Source of the DNA: Solobacterium sp.
Lineage (GTDB): Bacteria; Bacillota_I; Bacilli_A; Erysipelotrichales; Erysipelotrichaceae
DNA: 64,000 bases
Assembly: GCA_017512725.1 (NCBI GenBank)
Contig: JAFWEW010000044.1
Location: 62,001 to 126,000 of the forward strand
Direction of reading: 5' to 3'
In this document: positions 41,193 through 48,988 of the stretch, piece by piece
Layout of the letters: every line of letters begins with the position of its first letter
Position numbering within the stretch: the first letter of the stretch is position 1
Notes under the pieces: generated by a model
Databases searched by the model: none
Seen by the model: the letters and a program-made list of their open reading frames with translations, nothing else
What the model was told of the DNA's origin: nothing
Translations under genes and position numbers: made by a program

Positions 41193-41200
41193 GTCTGATT
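41193..41200. repeat. Left target-site duplication of the IS66 element
   Basis: GTCTGATT, identical to 43435-43442 on the other side of the element. Confidence 0.85.
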
Positions 41201-41230
41201 GTTACAGTTCACACGGGGTAAAAACGAGAA

Positions 41231-41581
41231 TCACTGATTTATGGAGATCTGTAGTTCGCAGATCTCTTTTATGATCTTCTGAGCGGACGCAGGAAGCTGG
41301 CGATACTTGAATATCAGATCCTGCTCTTCCTGAGAGAACATTTTGGAAGATATCTTCTTTTTCTTTAGGGAACTTATTTCTGATTCTGCACCTGTTAGTT
41401 CTATGACAGAACAATCTAGCGCATCACATATTTTCTGAAGCTGTTCATCTGAGACACGACGAACACCGCCATTCTCATATCTGACGATCGTACTCTGGTC
41501 CACACCTATCATCTTCGCTAATTGAGTGGTTGTGATGTTCTTTTCTTTTCGCTTGATTTTAATGTTCTGCCCTACAGACAT
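41231..41581 (-). CDS. XRE-family regulator carried by the IS66 element
   Basis: 116 residues. N-terminal HTH (~1-62; VGQNIKIKRKEKNITTTQLAKMIGVDQSTIVRYENGG), then a basic helical tail (SSLKKKKISSKMFSQEEQDLIFKYRQLPASAQKIIKEICELQ), a pattern common in Cro/CI-like repressors of Firmicutes. It lies inside the inverted ends of the element, divergent from the transposase, with a pair of 10-bp palindromes between them. It probably represses the transposase and itself (inference). IS66 elements normally carry tnpA/tnpB on the transposase strand, so this arrangement is unusual. Confidence 0.85.
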   Translation of the reverse strand: MSVGQNIKIKRKEKNITTTQLAKMIGVDQSTIVRYENGGVRRVSDEQLQKICDALDCSVIELTGAESEISSLKKKKISSKMFSQEEQDLIFKYRQLPASAQKIIKEICELQISINQ

Positions 41582-41670
41582 ATACGCATCCTTCTGAGTA
41601 CATTTTATCTGATTTTCACCATTTCGCTGTTGAATACCATTCTAAAACGCATCATACTGAAGTCAAGGAA

Positions 41671-41692
41671 TATGTACATATGTATGTACATA
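41671..41692. promoter_or_regulatory. Twin palindrome operator between XRE and transposase genes
   Basis: TATGTACATA occurs at 41671-41680 and again at 41683-41692, each a perfect 10-bp palindrome, 12 bp centre to centre, just before the transposase start. Likely binding site for the divergent XRE protein. Confidence 0.55.
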
Positions 41693-41704
41693 TATTATTA
41701 ATGT

Positions 41705-43342
41705 ATGTCAGATTGTATGACCTGCCACAGATTCCATGAACTCAGATCATTACGCGCTGCCGTAAGGCGTTTTGAAGATGGCAGCGAGACAGCTGCTCTC
41801 ATAGCTGCACATGAAGCGGATCAGAGAAGGTTAGAGAACTTGAAGGCTGATAATACTTGTATTTCCGCTGAACTTCTGGAAGTAAAACACGAGAACCGTA
41901 TTTTGAAAGAAGAGGTGTTACGGATACAGAGTGATTATGATCTGTTGGTGAGTAAATACTATGCTCTGCGGAATGAATCAGATTATGAAACAGTGATCAA
42001 CTCACCAGAGTTTCAGGAGCGTATCGATCATCTAGTGCTTTCGCTCTTCAATGAACTTGAAGACAAACAGGCTTACATCGTTAAGCTGGAATCACAGATC
42101 CATAAGGACTATACAAACTCCTCGAAACCTTCATCTCAATGCCCGAACCATAAGAAGATTGTCAATAACCGCGAAAAGACCGGCGCATCTGTCGGTGGGC
42201 AGCCTGGACATAAAGGGCATCCGCGTAAACAAAGAGATGCGACGAAAACAATGGCTCTTCCGTTTCCGGAAGAAGTGATATCTCATCCGGATGATTATGA
42301 ATTCGTTGAATTCAAATCCAGAAAACAGACGGATGTAAGAATGGAAGTTACTGTTACAGAACTGAAATCTCCGGTATTCCGCAATAAGCAAACCGGCAGA
42401 CTAATATGGACTCCGTTTCCGGAAGGTTATGAGAATGAGATGAACTACGGTGCCGGCTTAAGGGCATTCTGTTGTATGGCAAACAATTATCTGAATGTAC
42501 CACTCCGGAAAGTATCCGCATTTCTCAAAGACCTTACCCATGGCGATATTGAGATCGCACCGTCAACAATCCAGAATCTGAGTAAGCGATTCGCAGACAA
42601 GACAGAAAAGAACGAAGAAGAGATCTTCCGTAATCTTATGAATTCACCGTATATGCATAATGACTTCACAACGATACGGGTAAATGGCAGCCAGTACTTC
42701 GCTAATGTTTCTTCCAATGGAAGAGATGTTCTGTATTTGTTCCGGAAAAACAAAGGAGGTAAAGGATTGGAAGGAACACCAGTAGAAAACTATTTGTTCG
42801 TACTGATCCATGATCATGACATCACCTACTTCAAATATGGCAGTGCCCATCAGAAGTGCATCGTACATGAGCAGAGATATGTCAAAGGCAGCGAAGAAAA
42901 TGAAACTGATCTGAAATGGAACAAACTCATGTCCGGACATTTGAGATGGATCATCCATAACTTCAAGGAAGGCAATCTGAATACAGAAGAATCGATTCAA
43001 AAGGCAAAAGCCAGATATTACGAGATACTGGACCTGGCAATGGAAGAATACGAACATGTCCCGAAGAAACAGCTTGAGTATTACAAAGACGGATATAATA
43101 CCGCAAAGCGGCTGAAAGAATACGGTGAGAATCTCTTGTATTTCCTGGATCATCCGGAGATTCCCTATGACAATAATGAGTGTGAGCGGCGTGCCCGCCG
43201 CATCAAAGGAAAACAACGGGTGATAGGTACATTCAGGAGTATCCAGAGTGCGGAAGACTATCTGAAGTTCATGACCTATATGGAAACAGCACGTGATTCT
43301 ACAGATAACAAGTTTGAGAAACTAGTTGAAGTGTTTTCATGA
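41705..43342 (+). CDS. IS66-family transposase (TnpC)
   Basis: 545 residues from ATG 41705; no ribosome binding site, and ATG 41717 is equally possible. Order: coiled-coil N terminus (ENLKADN...EVKHENRILKEEVLRIQ), a Ser/Lys-rich SSKPSSQCP with GASVGGQPGHKGH (the conserved IS66 zinc-finger lead-in), a zinc-binding middle, and a DDE catalytic core with HNDFTTIRVNG (first Asp), LIHDHDITYFKYG, and the Glu in DNNECERRARRIKGKQRV. The C-terminal IGTFRS..A segment is typical. It moves the element flanked by the 41201/43434 ends. Appears intact. Confidence 0.9.
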   Translation: MSDCMTCHRFHELRSLRAAVRRFEDGSETAALIAAHEADQRRLENLKADNTCISAELLEVKHENRILKEEVLRIQSDYDLLVSKYYALRNESDYETVINSPEFQERIDHLVLSLFNELEDKQAYIVKLESQIHKDYTNSSKPSSQCPNHKKIVNNREKTGASVGGQPGHKGHPRKQRDATKTMALPFPEEVISHPDDYEFVEFKSRKQTDVRMEVTVTELKSPVFRNKQTGRLIWTPFPEGYENEMNYGAGLRAFCCMANNYLNVPLRKVSAFLKDLTHGDIEIAPSTIQNLSKRFADKTEKNEEEIFRNLMNSPYMHNDFTTIRVNGSQYFANVSSNGRDVLYLFRKNKGGKGLEGTPVENYLFVLIHDHDITYFKYGSAHQKCIVHEQRYVKGSEENETDLKWNKLMSGHLRWIIHNFKEGNLNTEESIQKAKARYYEILDLAMEEYEHVPKKQLEYYKDGYNTAKRLKEYGENLLYFLDHPEIPYDNNECERRARRIKGKQRVIGTFRSIQSAEDYLKFMTYMETARDSTDNKFEKLVEVFS

Positions 43343-43434
43343 CCCATAAAGAAAGTGATGCGATTACTCCGGCACATCTATGCCATACTGTGAGTGATCC
43401 CATCGCTTTATTATTTACCCGTGTAAACTGTAAC

Positions 43435-43442
43435 GTCTGATT
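43435..43442. repeat. Right target-site duplication of the IS66 element
   Basis: GTCTGATT, identical to 41193-41200. Confidence 0.85.
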
Positions 43443-43551: not shown

Positions 43552-45396
43552 ATGCCAATGGAACTCGGTGACCTGCTGGAATACGCTAGGAATACGTATC
43601 ACATCGAAGAAGAACATAAATGGGCTGACTGGCCCGGTTTTTCCGTGCTTTCGCATCCGGATACCGGCAAATGGATTGCCTTATGCATGCGCCAATGGGA
43701 CAGTGAGACCGGAGAACTGATCGAACGGATCGATCTCAAATGCGAACAGAGCTGCCTGCGGGAATTCCGTATGCCCTGGCTTACCCTTCCGGTACGCATG
43801 AAGGGATACCACTGGGCTGGGATTGCCTTTACCCAGGATACCGACGCCCTCATTGTACGCAGACTCCTTGACCGGGCTGTCCTGTATGGAAAACCGCGCG
43901 GTTATACCGTTGTCCTGGATCCAGATAACAGGGCATCGGAATCAATGCACCGTGATACCGCCCTTCCCTTTTCCGGCAGTTCCTACCGCCCCGAGAAAGT
44001 CCATGTGCCGGATCAGATCCTGCAGATGCGAAAGATGAACACCACCATCGGAGATCTGAGATCCATCCGGAATAAAACCTTCTATAAACAGGCTCTCTTC
44101 ATGAAGGACTATGAAGATGATTATCCCTGGCAGGGAGACTTCGTTCATTATTTCCCCACCTACCGGGATCTGAATCTATCCCAGCTGCGGGGGTATTTTT
44201 CCTGGCGGACAAAACTGCGCAAAGGAATCTATGAACCGATTCCTTTATCCGCAGCTTATATTTACATCTACGAACTGCTGAATGGCATCGGTACCGATTC
44301 TGACGAAGACCGGCTGGCAAAGATCCGGACCTTTGTGACACAGTCAACTGAAGCCGGCCTCTTCAGCAGTCACGACTTAAAGAACACAGAAGACTGGATC
44401 ACAGAACTTGGCATCCTGCTGGGCTTGAGCCCGGACGTCATTGGAACGTATACCAGACATTCCTTCCTGAAACGGGACGCCATGCTGGAGAAGCTGATGA
44501 ACCCACAGGACTATTCGGATGAAGACGTACTTGCGGCATTGAAATATGTTTCCGGAAAAACGCTGCAGAAAACACCGGTTTTGAATCAGGAACGCGGCGC
44601 GTCTCTGTTTGCCAATGCGTGGCGCAACGGCACAGCGACAGTCTTTGATAACGGAATGAACCTGTTTACACGCTGTTTTGGAAGTCAGAGCACCGGGCGC
44701 TGGTATCCGCTGATCAATGCGGTATATTATGAAGAACACGCCCCGCAAGACCGGGACTATACAGTAAATTCTGTACATTCCCTGCACTGCCGCAATGGAA
44801 TCTGGACGCAGGAATACTACAACCAGCGGTTTACTCAGGAAAAGCTTCTTCATGCCTTCCTGCGCGAGGCGGACTGCCGGTTCCGCCGGTATTTGAAAAC
44901 CGGCCGGTATTTACAGGAAAAAGAAACAGAGGCCTGGGCACTGCCAATGATCAATGCGGCCATTCAGGCTGATCAGAAAGCAGTGCTGGAAGCCTCACGC
45001 CCGAAGATTACGATCGATCTGTCCGGTCTTGATCAGATTCGAAGCGATGCCTTGACCACACAGAACAGCCTGCTTACGGAAACCGAAACCCTCTCAGAGC
45101 TTCCGGTGGAAGAGCTGCCTGCAGCAGAACCCGAAGCAGTAAAGGATCCAGAACGGAATACTGCTTGTTCCCTCGATCCGGTGTATGTGGAAATCCTGCG
45201 GAAGCTGCTGAAGGATGAACCGGTTCAGGATCTGATCAGAGAACAGCACCTGATGCCGGCACTGATCGCAGATACCGTGAATGAACAGTTCTATGAGGAA
45301 ATCGGTGATACGATTCTTCTGTGTGAAGATGACCGGCTTGCGGTAGTGGATGATTACCGTGAAGAGATTGAACAGCTGATTGGAGGTACCAAGTGA
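43552..45396 (+). CDS. TerB-N/TerB-C domain protein, first gene of a three-gene putative defence operon
   Basis: 614 residues; ATG 43552 (or 43558), no clear ribosome binding site. The middle holds the TerB_N hallmark (YFPTYRDLNLSQLRGYFSW, then IPLSAAYIYIYELLNGIG) near residues 204-255. The C-terminal part (~370-614) has TerB_C-like helical segments and ends with ILRKLLKDEPV and EEIGDTILL. The first ~130 residues are an extra domain. TerB-type modules come from tellurite-resistance/stress systems and are often linked to phage defence and membrane-associated stress complexes. It overlaps the next gene by one or a few bases. With the BrxD-like ATPase and Lhr-like helicase it forms a unit that I do not know as a tested system. 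Confidence 0.8.
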   Translation: MPMELGDLLEYARNTYHIEEEHKWADWPGFSVLSHPDTGKWIALCMRQWDSETGELIERIDLKCEQSCLREFRMPWLTLPVRMKGYHWAGIAFTQDTDALIVRRLLDRAVLYGKPRGYTVVLDPDNRASESMHRDTALPFSGSSYRPEKVHVPDQILQMRKMNTTIGDLRSIRNKTFYKQALFMKDYEDDYPWQGDFVHYFPTYRDLNLSQLRGYFSWRTKLRKGIYEPIPLSAAYIYIYELLNGIGTDSDEDRLAKIRTFVTQSTEAGLFSSHDLKNTEDWITELGILLGLSPDVIGTYTRHSFLKRDAMLEKLMNPQDYSDEDVLAALKYVSGKTLQKTPVLNQERGASLFANAWRNGTATVFDNGMNLFTRCFGSQSTGRWYPLINAVYYEEHAPQDRDYTVNSVHSLHCRNGIWTQEYYNQRFTQEKLLHAFLREADCRFRRYLKTGRYLQEKETEAWALPMINAAIQADQKAVLEASRPKITIDLSGLDQIRSDALTTQNSLLTETETLSELPVEELPAAEPEAVKDPERNTACSLDPVYVEILRKLLKDEPVQDLIREQHLMPALIADTVNEQFYEEIGDTILLCEDDRLAVVDDYREEIEQLIGGTK

Positions 45397-46724
45397 TGAG
45401 TGAACCAAGAAAAGTACCGAAGCGTATTGCCCAGACGGTGCTCAACTCCCTCAAGGGAGGGGTTGTGCCGCGCATTGGGCTTCCCTATATCATGGTTGGC
45501 CGCAAGCGTGAGGTTGAAGCGTTGCTGAAGGACGTCGATATCATTTCCGAAGGCGGTGCTTCCTTCCGGTTTGTGGTTGGAAAATACGGTTCCGGCAAAA
45601 GCTTTTTACTGCAGGCGATCCGTAATTATGTCATGGACCGTGGTTTTATCGTGGCCGATGCGGACCTTTCCCCGGAGCGCCGGCTTCAGGGAACCCGTGG
45701 CCAGGGGCTGGCCACCTACCGGGAACTGATTTCAAATCTTTCCACCAAAACCAAACCAGAAGGCGGGGCCCTGACCCTTATCCTGGACCGCTGGATTAGC
45801 GCAGCCCAGAGTGAAGCAGCCCTCGAAACCGGTCTCCATCCAGGCGACCCTGCCCTTGCCCAGGCAACAGAGCGGAAGATCATGGAAGTGATTTCCTCCA
45901 TCCGTGAGCTGGTCCATGGCTTTGAGTTCGCAAAGCTGCTGACTGCTTACTACCAGGCTTATATCAGCGGGGATGATGAAACCAAGGCAAAGGTTGTCAA
46001 ATGGTTTCGTGGGGAATACCCGCTGAAAAGCGAAGCCAGGGAAGCCCTTGGCGTCAATATCATCATTTCGGATGATGACTGGTATGACTACCTGAAGCTG
46101 TTTGCGGTATTCTTCCGTCTTGCAGGTTATGCGGGCATGATGATCATGGTCGATGAACTCGTCAATCTGTATAAGATTCCGAATTCCATTACCCGTCAGT
46201 ACAACTATGAAAAGATCCTGACCATGTATAACGATACCCTGCAGGGCAAGGCAGGCTATCTTGGCATTATTATGGGTGCTACACCGCAGGCGCTTGAAGA
46301 CAAACGCCGCGGTATCTACAGCTATGAAGCACTGCGTTCAAGGCTTGCGGAAGGGCGCTTCTCAAAACCAGGTGCCCGGGATCTGCTGGCGCCGGTCATC
46401 CGGCTTGAGCCTCTGACCGCAGAAGAAATGCTTGTCTTATGTGAAAAGCTGGCGCGTATGCACGCGGAGCTGTATGGCTACCCGCTGACGATCAGCGCCG
46501 AGGACCTTGCCGGTTTTATCAAAACGGAATACAGCCGCATTGGCGCCGATACGAATATCACGCCGCGTGAAGTGATCCGTGACTTTATTGAACTGCTCGA
46601 TCTCTTATACCAGAATCCCGGTATGAAGATTGACCAGCTTCTGGAATCCGAAGCGTTTTCCTATGCCCAGTCGGAAGCGGTCAGTGATGAAACCACACCG
46701 GAATTTGCGGAGTTTACAATATGA
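45396..46724 (+). CDS. BrxD-like (DUF2791) P-loop ATP-binding protein
   Basis: 442 residues from ATG 45396, which shares its first base with the TerB stop; GGAGG lies nine bases before (a GTG at 45393 is possible). Walker A GKYGSGKS at 62-69 and Walker B MMIMVDELVNLY (Asp253, Glu254). The text LPYIMVGRKREVEALLKD, DADLSPERRLQG, RYLFKP-type motif absent, and the segment LLAPVIRLEPLTAEEMLVLCEKLARMH match the BREX ATP-binding proteins BrxD/PglY-associated DUF2791. In type 2 BREX, brxD sits beside the helicase brxHI; here the same pair appears without pglX or pglZ. Probably an AAA+-type switch for the helicase (inference). Confidence 0.82.
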   Translation: MSEPRKVPKRIAQTVLNSLKGGVVPRIGLPYIMVGRKREVEALLKDVDIISEGGASFRFVVGKYGSGKSFLLQAIRNYVMDRGFIVADADLSPERRLQGTRGQGLATYRELISNLSTKTKPEGGALTLILDRWISAAQSEAALETGLHPGDPALAQATERKIMEVISSIRELVHGFEFAKLLTAYYQAYISGDDETKAKVVKWFRGEYPLKSEAREALGVNIIISDDDWYDYLKLFAVFFRLAGYAGMMIMVDELVNLYKIPNSITRQYNYEKILTMYNDTLQGKAGYLGIIMGATPQALEDKRRGIYSYEALRSRLAEGRFSKPGARDLLAPVIRLEPLTAEEMLVLCEKLARMHAELYGYPLTISAEDLAGFIKTEYSRIGADTNITPREVIRDFIELLDLLYQNPGMKIDQLLESEAFSYAQSEAVSDETTPEFAEFTI

Positions 46725-48988
46725 ATGTCTTTGAACGCTATGCGCCGTTTATTCAGGATTACATTTACCGCTCTGGCTGGAAATGTCTGCGCGGTGTTCA
46801 GAATGCGGCTGGAGAAGCGATCTTCGGTACCGATCAGAATGTGCTTCTGACCGCCTCCACCGCTTCCGGTAAAACCGAAGCTGCGTTCTTTCCGATTCTG
46901 ACCCTGCTGGAAGAAGAACCTGCTGAAAGTATTGCCGTATTGTATATCGCACCCCTTAAGGCACTGATCAATGATCAGTTCGGGCGCCTGACGGAGCTCT
47001 GTGAAGAGGAAGGCATTGCGGTAAACCGCTGGCATGGGGATGCCAGTCAGTCTGCCAAGCGGAAGCTGCTGCGGAAACCAAGGGGCATCCTGCAGATTAC
47101 ACCGGAGTCCCTGGAATCCCTGCTGATCAACAAGCACATGGAGATTCCCTCCATGTTTCATGATCTGCGCTTTATCGTCATTGATGAGATTCACTCGCTT
47201 CTTCGTGCCGACCGCGGCCTTCAGACCTTCTGCCTGATTGAGCGGTTATGCCGGACTGCCGGCTGTAACCCCAGACGCGTCGGTCTTTCCGCAACGATTG
47301 GAAACCCGGAAGAAGCCGGGAAGTTTCTCGCGGCTGGAAGCGGACGCGGCACCATCATCCCAAAGTTTGAAGGTGGAAGTGAAGTCTGGCGCCTCAGTAT
47401 GGAACACTTCTATACAACCGATCCGCAGGCGGATGAAGATAAAGATGTTTCCACCATCGAAGAAACCCCAGTGATGGAAGCGGCAACCGATACCGCACCT
47501 GCCTCTGCAGATCCGGGTATCGGCTATATCTTTGAACATACCCGTGGAAAGAAATGCCTTGTCTTTACCAATTCGAGAGAAGAATGCGAAAGCGTCTGTC
47601 AGAGTTTACGACAGTATTGTGAAGTGATGCATGAACCGGACCGCTTTCTGATTCACCATGGCAATCTTTCCGCCTCCTATCGGGAGAGCGCGGAGATGGA
47701 CATGAAGGATGATGACTCCACCATGTCGGTCTGCGCCACCGCAACCCTGGAACTGGGTATTGATATCGGACGCCTGGAACGGGCGTTCCAGATCGATGCG
47801 CCTTTTACGGTATCCGGCTTCCTGCAGCGGATGGGACGCACCGGCCGCAGAGGCGACCCTTCCGAAATGTGGTTTGTCATGCGCGAAGACCATCCCGAAG
47901 CCAGAGATATGATCGGCCGCTTTGTGCCATGGTATCTCGTACAGGGTATCGCGCTGGTACAGCTGTATATCGAAGAGCGCTTTGTCGAACCACCCCGTAC
48001 CGGGCGGTATCCATACAGCCTGCTGTATCATCAGACGATGAGCACGCTCGCCTCTCAGGGAGAGATGACCCCTGCCGAACTTGCCTCAAGAGTTCTCACA
48101 CTCAACTGCTTCAAAACCATTTCCCAGGAGGACTACCGCATTCTTCTGCGGCACCTGATTGAGAACGATCATATCAACCGCACGGAAAACGGCGGCCTGA
48201 TCACCGGAGTCACCGGTGAGCGTATTGTGAATAACTACAAGTTCTATGCGGTCTTCCAGGAGAATGTGGAATATACCGTGCGGACTGCTTTCGAACAGCT
48301 CGGAACAATCGTCAAACCACCGCCAGTCGGAGACAAGATTGCGATTGCCGGACGGGTATGGCTGGTGGATGAAGTGGATCACAAGCACCGGACCGTATAC
48401 TGCACGCTGGTCAAAGGAAAAATCCCCGCCTACTTCGGGGATGTGGCGGGTGATATTCACACCCGCATTCTGGAACGGATGTATGGCGTACTGAACGAAG
48501 AAAAACAGTATCCGTATCTGATGCCGCATGCGGTATTCCGCCTGCAAGATGGCCGGGATGTATTCCGCAAGTCCAATATGGCAGAGAAGCCGTTGATCCA
48601 TCTTGGCGGAAAGATGTGGGCCTTGTTTCCATGGCTTGGCAGCTATGCCTTCCTGGCGCTGGAGCGCTTCCTGAAGCTGCGCTGCGGCAAGCGCCTTGGC
48701 CTCAAGGGGCTAAACCCCTTCCGTCCCTACTACATGGAATTTACGATGAACGCCGAAGAAGCGGAATTCTATGAAATTGTACGGGAAGAAGCACAGAAGG
48801 AATTTGACCCACTGGAACTCGTTTACCCCAATGAAGTGCCGGTCTTTGAAAAATATGACGAGTATGTGCCGGATGAGCTGATCCGCAAGGGATTTGCGTA
48901 TGGCGTACTGGATATTGAAGGCATGGAGAAACGGATTCTTTCCTGGAACGGGTGCATCAGGAAACAGTCACTGAGGAATAACGCATGA
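46721..48988 (+). CDS. Lhr-like (BrxHI-type) DEAD/DEAH helicase
   Basis: 755 residues, ATG overlapping the previous stop by 4 bp. Superfamily 2 motifs: I TASTASGKTEA (Lys51), Ia YIAPLKALINDQ, II VIDEIHSLL (Asp155), III GLSATIGN, IV/V FTNSREECE and ATLELGIDIG, VI RMGRTGRRG (370-378). After the two RecA lobes there is a winged-helix and a C-terminal DUF1998-free region, shorter than full Lhr (~1500). Similar short Lhr helicases are BrxHI in BREX type 2. Substrate may be DNA or RNA with 3'-5' movement (family knowledge). The stop overlaps the start of a truncated frame at 48985. Confidence 0.9.
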   Translation: MNVFERYAPFIQDYIYRSGWKCLRGVQNAAGEAIFGTDQNVLLTASTASGKTEAAFFPILTLLEEEPAESIAVLYIAPLKALINDQFGRLTELCEEEGIAVNRWHGDASQSAKRKLLRKPRGILQITPESLESLLINKHMEIPSMFHDLRFIVIDEIHSLLRADRGLQTFCLIERLCRTAGCNPRRVGLSATIGNPEEAGKFLAAGSGRGTIIPKFEGGSEVWRLSMEHFYTTDPQADEDKDVSTIEETPVMEAATDTAPASADPGIGYIFEHTRGKKCLVFTNSREECESVCQSLRQYCEVMHEPDRFLIHHGNLSASYRESAEMDMKDDDSTMSVCATATLELGIDIGRLERAFQIDAPFTVSGFLQRMGRTGRRGDPSEMWFVMREDHPEARDMIGRFVPWYLVQGIALVQLYIEERFVEPPRTGRYPYSLLYHQTMSTLASQGEMTPAELASRVLTLNCFKTISQEDYRILLRHLIENDHINRTENGGLITGVTGERIVNNYKFYAVFQENVEYTVRTAFEQLGTIVKPPPVGDKIAIAGRVWLVDEVDHKHRTVYCTLVKGKIPAYFGDVAGDIHTRILERMYGVLNEEKQYPYLMPHAVFRLQDGRDVFRKSNMAEKPLIHLGGKMWALFPWLGSYAFLALERFLKLRCGKRLGLKGLNPFRPYYMEFTMNAEEAEFYEIVREEAQKEFDPLELVYPNEVPVFEKYDEYVPDELIRKGFAYGVLDIEGMEKRILSWNGCIRKQSLRNNA

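Follow-up and report, generated by a model that had tools for sequence, protein, structure and literature searches.

A compact IS66-type insertion sequence from Solobacterium with a divergent XRE gene that probably encodes a built-in repressor

Introduction

Insertion sequences are usually thought to be self-limited by weak expression, frameshifting, antisense RNA or truncated transposase. Proteins encoded by an element that repress its own transposition are known from other systems, such as the phage Mu c repressor and TnpR of Tn3. IS66 elements duplicate 8 bp of their target. In the ISBst12 group, an IS66-type transposase gene occurs without tnpA or tnpB (PMC12898284); a member of this group, ISDge4, encodes a 449-aa transposase and has the ends GTGACTACTCAGCA and GTAACTGCTCAGCA (PMC12898284). 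Here, we describe an IS66-type element from Solobacterium sp. that carries a divergent XRE gene (xre) beside its transposase gene (tnpC). The window referred to below is the whole 64-kb stretch of DNA that was analysed. No published report of an XRE gene within an IS66 element was found in a literature search made without the main IS66 reviews. The element is probably an ISBst12-like IS66 insertion sequence of the tnpC-only kind, whose built-in repressor regulates its own expression and damps transposition.

Element structure and genomic surroundings

The IS66-type element spans window positions 41201–43434 (2234 bp), as read directly from the sequence. Its left terminal inverted repeat is GTTACAGTTCACACGGG (41201–41217, + strand), and the right one (43418–43434, − strand), with reverse complement GTTACAGTTTACACGGG, matches it at 16 of 17 positions. 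Exact 8-bp target-site duplications, GTCTGATT, lie on both sides (41193–41200 and 43435–43442), so that the borders, which an earlier note on this DNA had called certain, are well fixed. The same left end occurs in a second genome of the genus (G028), where another copy has GTTACAGTTCACACGGG as its right end, in perfect match to the left end; because of this, the lone right-end mismatch looks like a private mutation of the window element. The G028 genome has an uninterrupted Shango locus (L180) with a single GTCTGATT at the junction, which supports the right border; the locus is not a full empty site because its left flank is non-homologous to that of the window. The element occurs once in its own genome. 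As the earlier note had also stated, it contains only two plausible genes, which were typed with Pfam: tnpC and the divergent xre. The in-line tnpA and tnpB genes that precede tnpC in IS66 sensu stricto are absent, and only xre lies upstream. A stable hairpin 3' of tnpC (43352–43409, + strand; RNA fold z −3.6) is a possible terminator. The insertion sequence is complete, of the IS66 type, and has moved recently. Directly to its right is a complete Shango defence operon (sngA, sngB and sngC; 43552–48988) with E-values of 2.1e-64 for SngA, 8.2e-191 for SngB and 1.9e-276 for SngC. The right end of the element lies ~110 bp upstream of this operon, with tnpC pointing at it, and insertion in the Shango upstream region may affect operon expression.

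The transposase

The tnpC gene (41705–43342, + strand) encodes a 545-aa IS66-type DDE transposase with an N-terminal CxxC motif and a long coiled coil. It matches DDE_Tnp_IS66 (PF03050; E 3.5e-23, above the Pfam cut-off) and DUF6444 (E 1.5e-8). Its score of 155.5 bits against the NCBIfam IS66 equivalog NF033517 does not reach the 180-bit cut-off, and TnpC is therefore a divergent IS66 member. The candidate catalytic residues D320, D370 and E494 do not vary among 12 relatives; in a structure model, they occupy the strands and helix expected for an RNase H-like fold. Judged from its sequence, the transposase is intact, with conserved DDE residues. Its identity to IS66 transposases from named plasmids is ~24–28%, and all of these fall below 30% among the matches listed. 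In a transposase tree, it branches separately from the classical elements with tnpA and tnpB. Between the window and G028 copies of tnpC, 15 of 51 differences cluster at 41912–41961, in the region that codes for the coiled coil, which suggests local conversion.

XRE protein and candidate operators

The xre gene (41231–41581, − strand; stop codon 30 bp from the left end) encodes a 116-aa Cro/C1-type helix-turn-helix (HTH) protein (Pfam HTH_3, E 4.8e-16) that is predicted to be SinR-like from AlphaFold and Foldseek results. The AlphaFold model (pLDDT 80.7) consists of a five-helix HTH domain and a C-terminal helical hairpin. Its top Foldseek match is SinR (1b0n), and SinR, P22 C2 and ImmR-type repressors are its closest structural neighbours. 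Comparison of the window and G028 genes gives Ka 0.004 and Ks 0.086, from 7 changes only.

A candidate xre promoter, TTGACT-16-TAGAAT (41639–41666, − strand), scores 10/12, the best in the element. Two candidate operators lie between it and tnpC. The first, ATATGTACATAT (41670–41681), is 3 bp from the xre −35 box and holds the only ATATGNNCATAT in the 64-kb window. The second, TATGTACATA (41683–41692), which was found in a palindrome scan, lies 1 bp beyond the first and just upstream of tnpC. The candidate sites thus adjoin the xre −35 box and lie 12–35 bp ahead of the tnpC start codon. ATATGNNCATAT also occurs once each at the homologous position in two further elements (L004 and L076), so the palindrome is present in three diverged elements, 3–4 bp from the xre −35 box; in L076, the palindrome that contains it is 28 bp long. 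A fourth element (L064) has no compact palindrome, keeps the near half-site and has ATATGAG-N8-CTCATAT. The intergenic layout was read in these four elements, and the G037 and G025 contigs stop at the operator region. On the xre strand, it consists of CATAT, 3–4 bp, a −35 box (TTGACT or TAGACA), 16–17 bp and a −10 box (TAGAAT, TATAAT or TACAAT). Among 184 sequences, this composite, CATAT-N3/4-(−35)-N16/17-(−10), is restricted to these elements. Dinucleotide shuffles of the regions produce ATATGNNCATAT in 0.02–0.5% of cases, a figure that overstates the surprise because the operator and composite patterns were chosen after the sequences had been seen.

The earlier note had called XRE a repressor: its HTH domain, its closest SinR-type fold and the candidate operator agree with that name, and repression itself is what we infer from them. 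XRE dimers would bind the ATATGNNCATAT palindrome, or palindromes, between the two divergent promoters. Because of where the sites lie relative to the xre −35 box and the tnpC start, binding there would repress tnpC and tune the level of xre itself. On entering a naive cell, a new copy would be free to transpose until the repressor builds up, and copy number would then be kept low, by analogy with the immunity repressors of Mu and temperate phages.

XRE could also activate tnpC, for example as a SinR-like or C-protein-like switch that answers a host signal. Restriction-modification controllers C.BclI and C.AhdI share its HTH fold and are among its fold matches. The tnpC promoter also looks weak, and a promoter scan of the element gave no clear one. 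However, the second palindrome lies over the likely tnpC −10 region, which is a repressing position, and we regard activation as improbable. The location of the candidate site bears on another reading, in which XRE takes the place of TnpA, itself an HTH protein, as an accessory in transposition and helps TnpC to bind the ends. Classical IS66 elements of the order have an in-line TnpA-like ORF and the window element has none, as this reading would have it; yet the ATATGNNCATAT-type candidate site is missing from the element ends and occurs only in the intergenic region, xre is divergent rather than part of an operon, and relatives with similar ends lack xre. An accessory role therefore has a low probability.

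Recurrence of xre within IS66-type elements

A profile search found the XRE family in 7 of 70 genomes of the genus and in none of 245 others in the order (7/315 overall). The class sample gave only much weaker XRE matches, mostly to the HTH part, and the next best match covers that part alone. No relative was found in the viral contigs scanned. In six of the seven genomes, xre lies 21–79 bp inside an IS66-type end: in the window, G028, G050, G032 (3 places), G037 (3) and G025 (2). The insertions in these genomes occupy different sites. XRE matches at G032:C155, G032:C284 and G015:C328 have no IS66-type end, and G015 is therefore the sole genome of the seven without a link to an insertion sequence.

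The elements in G037 and G025 are multi-copy and split by the assembly, and their contig pieces were paired through matching 8-bp duplications: cgtattcc/cgtattcc and agggtatt/agggtatt in G037, and catccaaa/catccaaa in G025. This gives three further copies in two other species (two in G037 and one in G025) in which xre is at the left end and the right end matches. They are three independent insertions, and xre therefore travels with the element. The earlier note had said that its reading would fall if all other copies lacked xre or carried it outside the ends; instead, xre is enclosed by the ends in other species too, and three of these copies have paired 8-bp duplications. A one-off capture of xre is ruled out by these duplication pairs, as is a position outside the ends, because xre lies inside wherever an end is readable. 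L004 has no target duplication, and tnpC in L064 is truncated after ~115 residues. The pairing of xre with IS66 recurs in several related gut and rumen bacteria and is no accident.

One candidate was rejected as an independent full insertion. The element at G028:C195 (L183; 9002–11506) is 97.7% identical to that in the window; its last part and a 271-bp right flank are 100% identical to those of the window, and the Shango locus of G028 itself (C44) differs. Contig C195 is probably chimeric. In G037, a 42-bp solo piece, GTTACTATTCACAGCCTGTTGAAAACAGCTGTGAATAGTAAC (L094 1501–1542; G037:C28:22069–22110), is made up of two element ends in inverted orientation and lacks a duplication.

An intact orphan xre, with neither an IS end nor tnpC, occurs in G032 (L063 2999–3376) and is 92% identical to an IS-borne copy in the same genome (L064); it could be a relic or a silencer kept by the host. 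This orphan, together with the antitoxin PezA being the best solved relative of XRE by sequence, would suit a passenger that controls genes outside the element, or an antitoxin that lacks a toxin partner. We consider such a role very improbable: the element contains no toxin gene, and the sole ATATGNNCATAT in 64 kb adjoins the promoter of xre itself.

The upstream slot and different transposase branches

A search of the order with Pfam DDE_Tnp_IS66 gave 30 IS66 loci, and an XRE match lies near none of them; the readable loci, in which a transposase ORF could be placed, mostly have tnpA and tnpB in line. The divergent XRE arrangement is thus unusual, as the earlier note had proposed. Its statement that XRE stands in place of tnpA and tnpB is not fully accurate: XRE replaces nothing because TnpC belongs to a deep branch without these genes, in which the upstream slot is variable. 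The TnpC relatives compared are ~35–44% identical, and the contents of their slots differ. A small in-line ORF precedes tnpC in L039, L042, L043, L047, L052 and L011; such ORFs (e.g., SIVYxKDKRSGITYAYE...RxLIGRxDxETG) match no convincing Pfam family among those scanned. The slot holds an in-line DUF6788 protein in L037 and coiled-coil ORFs in L038 and L041, and is noncoding in L005–L007, L040 and L049. L005–L007 are TnpC relatives of the same genus without xre. DnaA-box-like TTWTCCAC sites occur in noncoding left regions of L005 (944–1206, n=3), L006 (90–331, n=3), L007 (n=1) and L010 (1101–1419, n=2). Their frequency is 1–3 per 240–320 bp in xre-less relatives versus three in the whole 64-kb window, and DnaA-linked control in place of XRE is possible in these relatives.

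The transposase tree does not join the XRE-bearing TnpCs of the window, G028 and G050, and their forced grouping is not rejected (p-AU 0.064). A stronger sign of mixing comes from G037, in which XRE is 69% identical to that of G032, and the TnpC fragment is 59% like L011 and only 31% like that of the window. The xre unit and the transposase have therefore not always been kept together, and sequence comparison places xre beside TnpCs from clearly separate branches. A further and rather doubtful extension is that the xre-operator unit serves different IS66 lineages in one genus as an interchangeable silencing module and gives cross-immunity. If so, the repressor of one element would also keep silent other IS66-type elements that share its site, and orphan copies, such as that in L063, may be retained by hosts as silencers.

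Implications and comparison with known systems

Recurrence of the pairing suggests that these minimal elements restrain their own transposition with a brake that they encode themselves. If the proposed repression is correct, a dedicated phage-type repressor and its operator within a 2.2-kb insertion sequence, recurring across species and transposase branches, would be a very small lysogeny-like circuit. The element offers a direct test of IS copy-number control, and the variable upstream slot (XRE, small ORF or noncoding DnaA-box-like DNA) provides natural comparisons on related transposases.

Mu and Tn3 differ from the window element in having unrelated transposases and larger size. SinR, P22 C2, 434 CI and ICEBs1 ImmR have palindromic operators between divergent promoters. 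They share the HTH fold with XRE, and SinR also shares a C-terminal helical region; unlike these repressors, XRE is encoded by a 2.2-kb insertion sequence that has a single transposase gene. Classical IS66/IS679 elements resemble the window element in their DDE_Tnp_IS66 domain and 8-bp duplication, but they have in-line tnpA and tnpB, and none of the order loci fetched has an XRE match. The ISBst12 group is like the window element in its lack of tnpA and tnpB, its 8-bp direct repeats and its imperfect ends that start with GTNAC. The window element is not single-ORF as that group is, but has a second, divergent gene, xre, and a candidate operator. By its described features (gene content, 8-bp repeats and ends), the window element is ISBst12-like.
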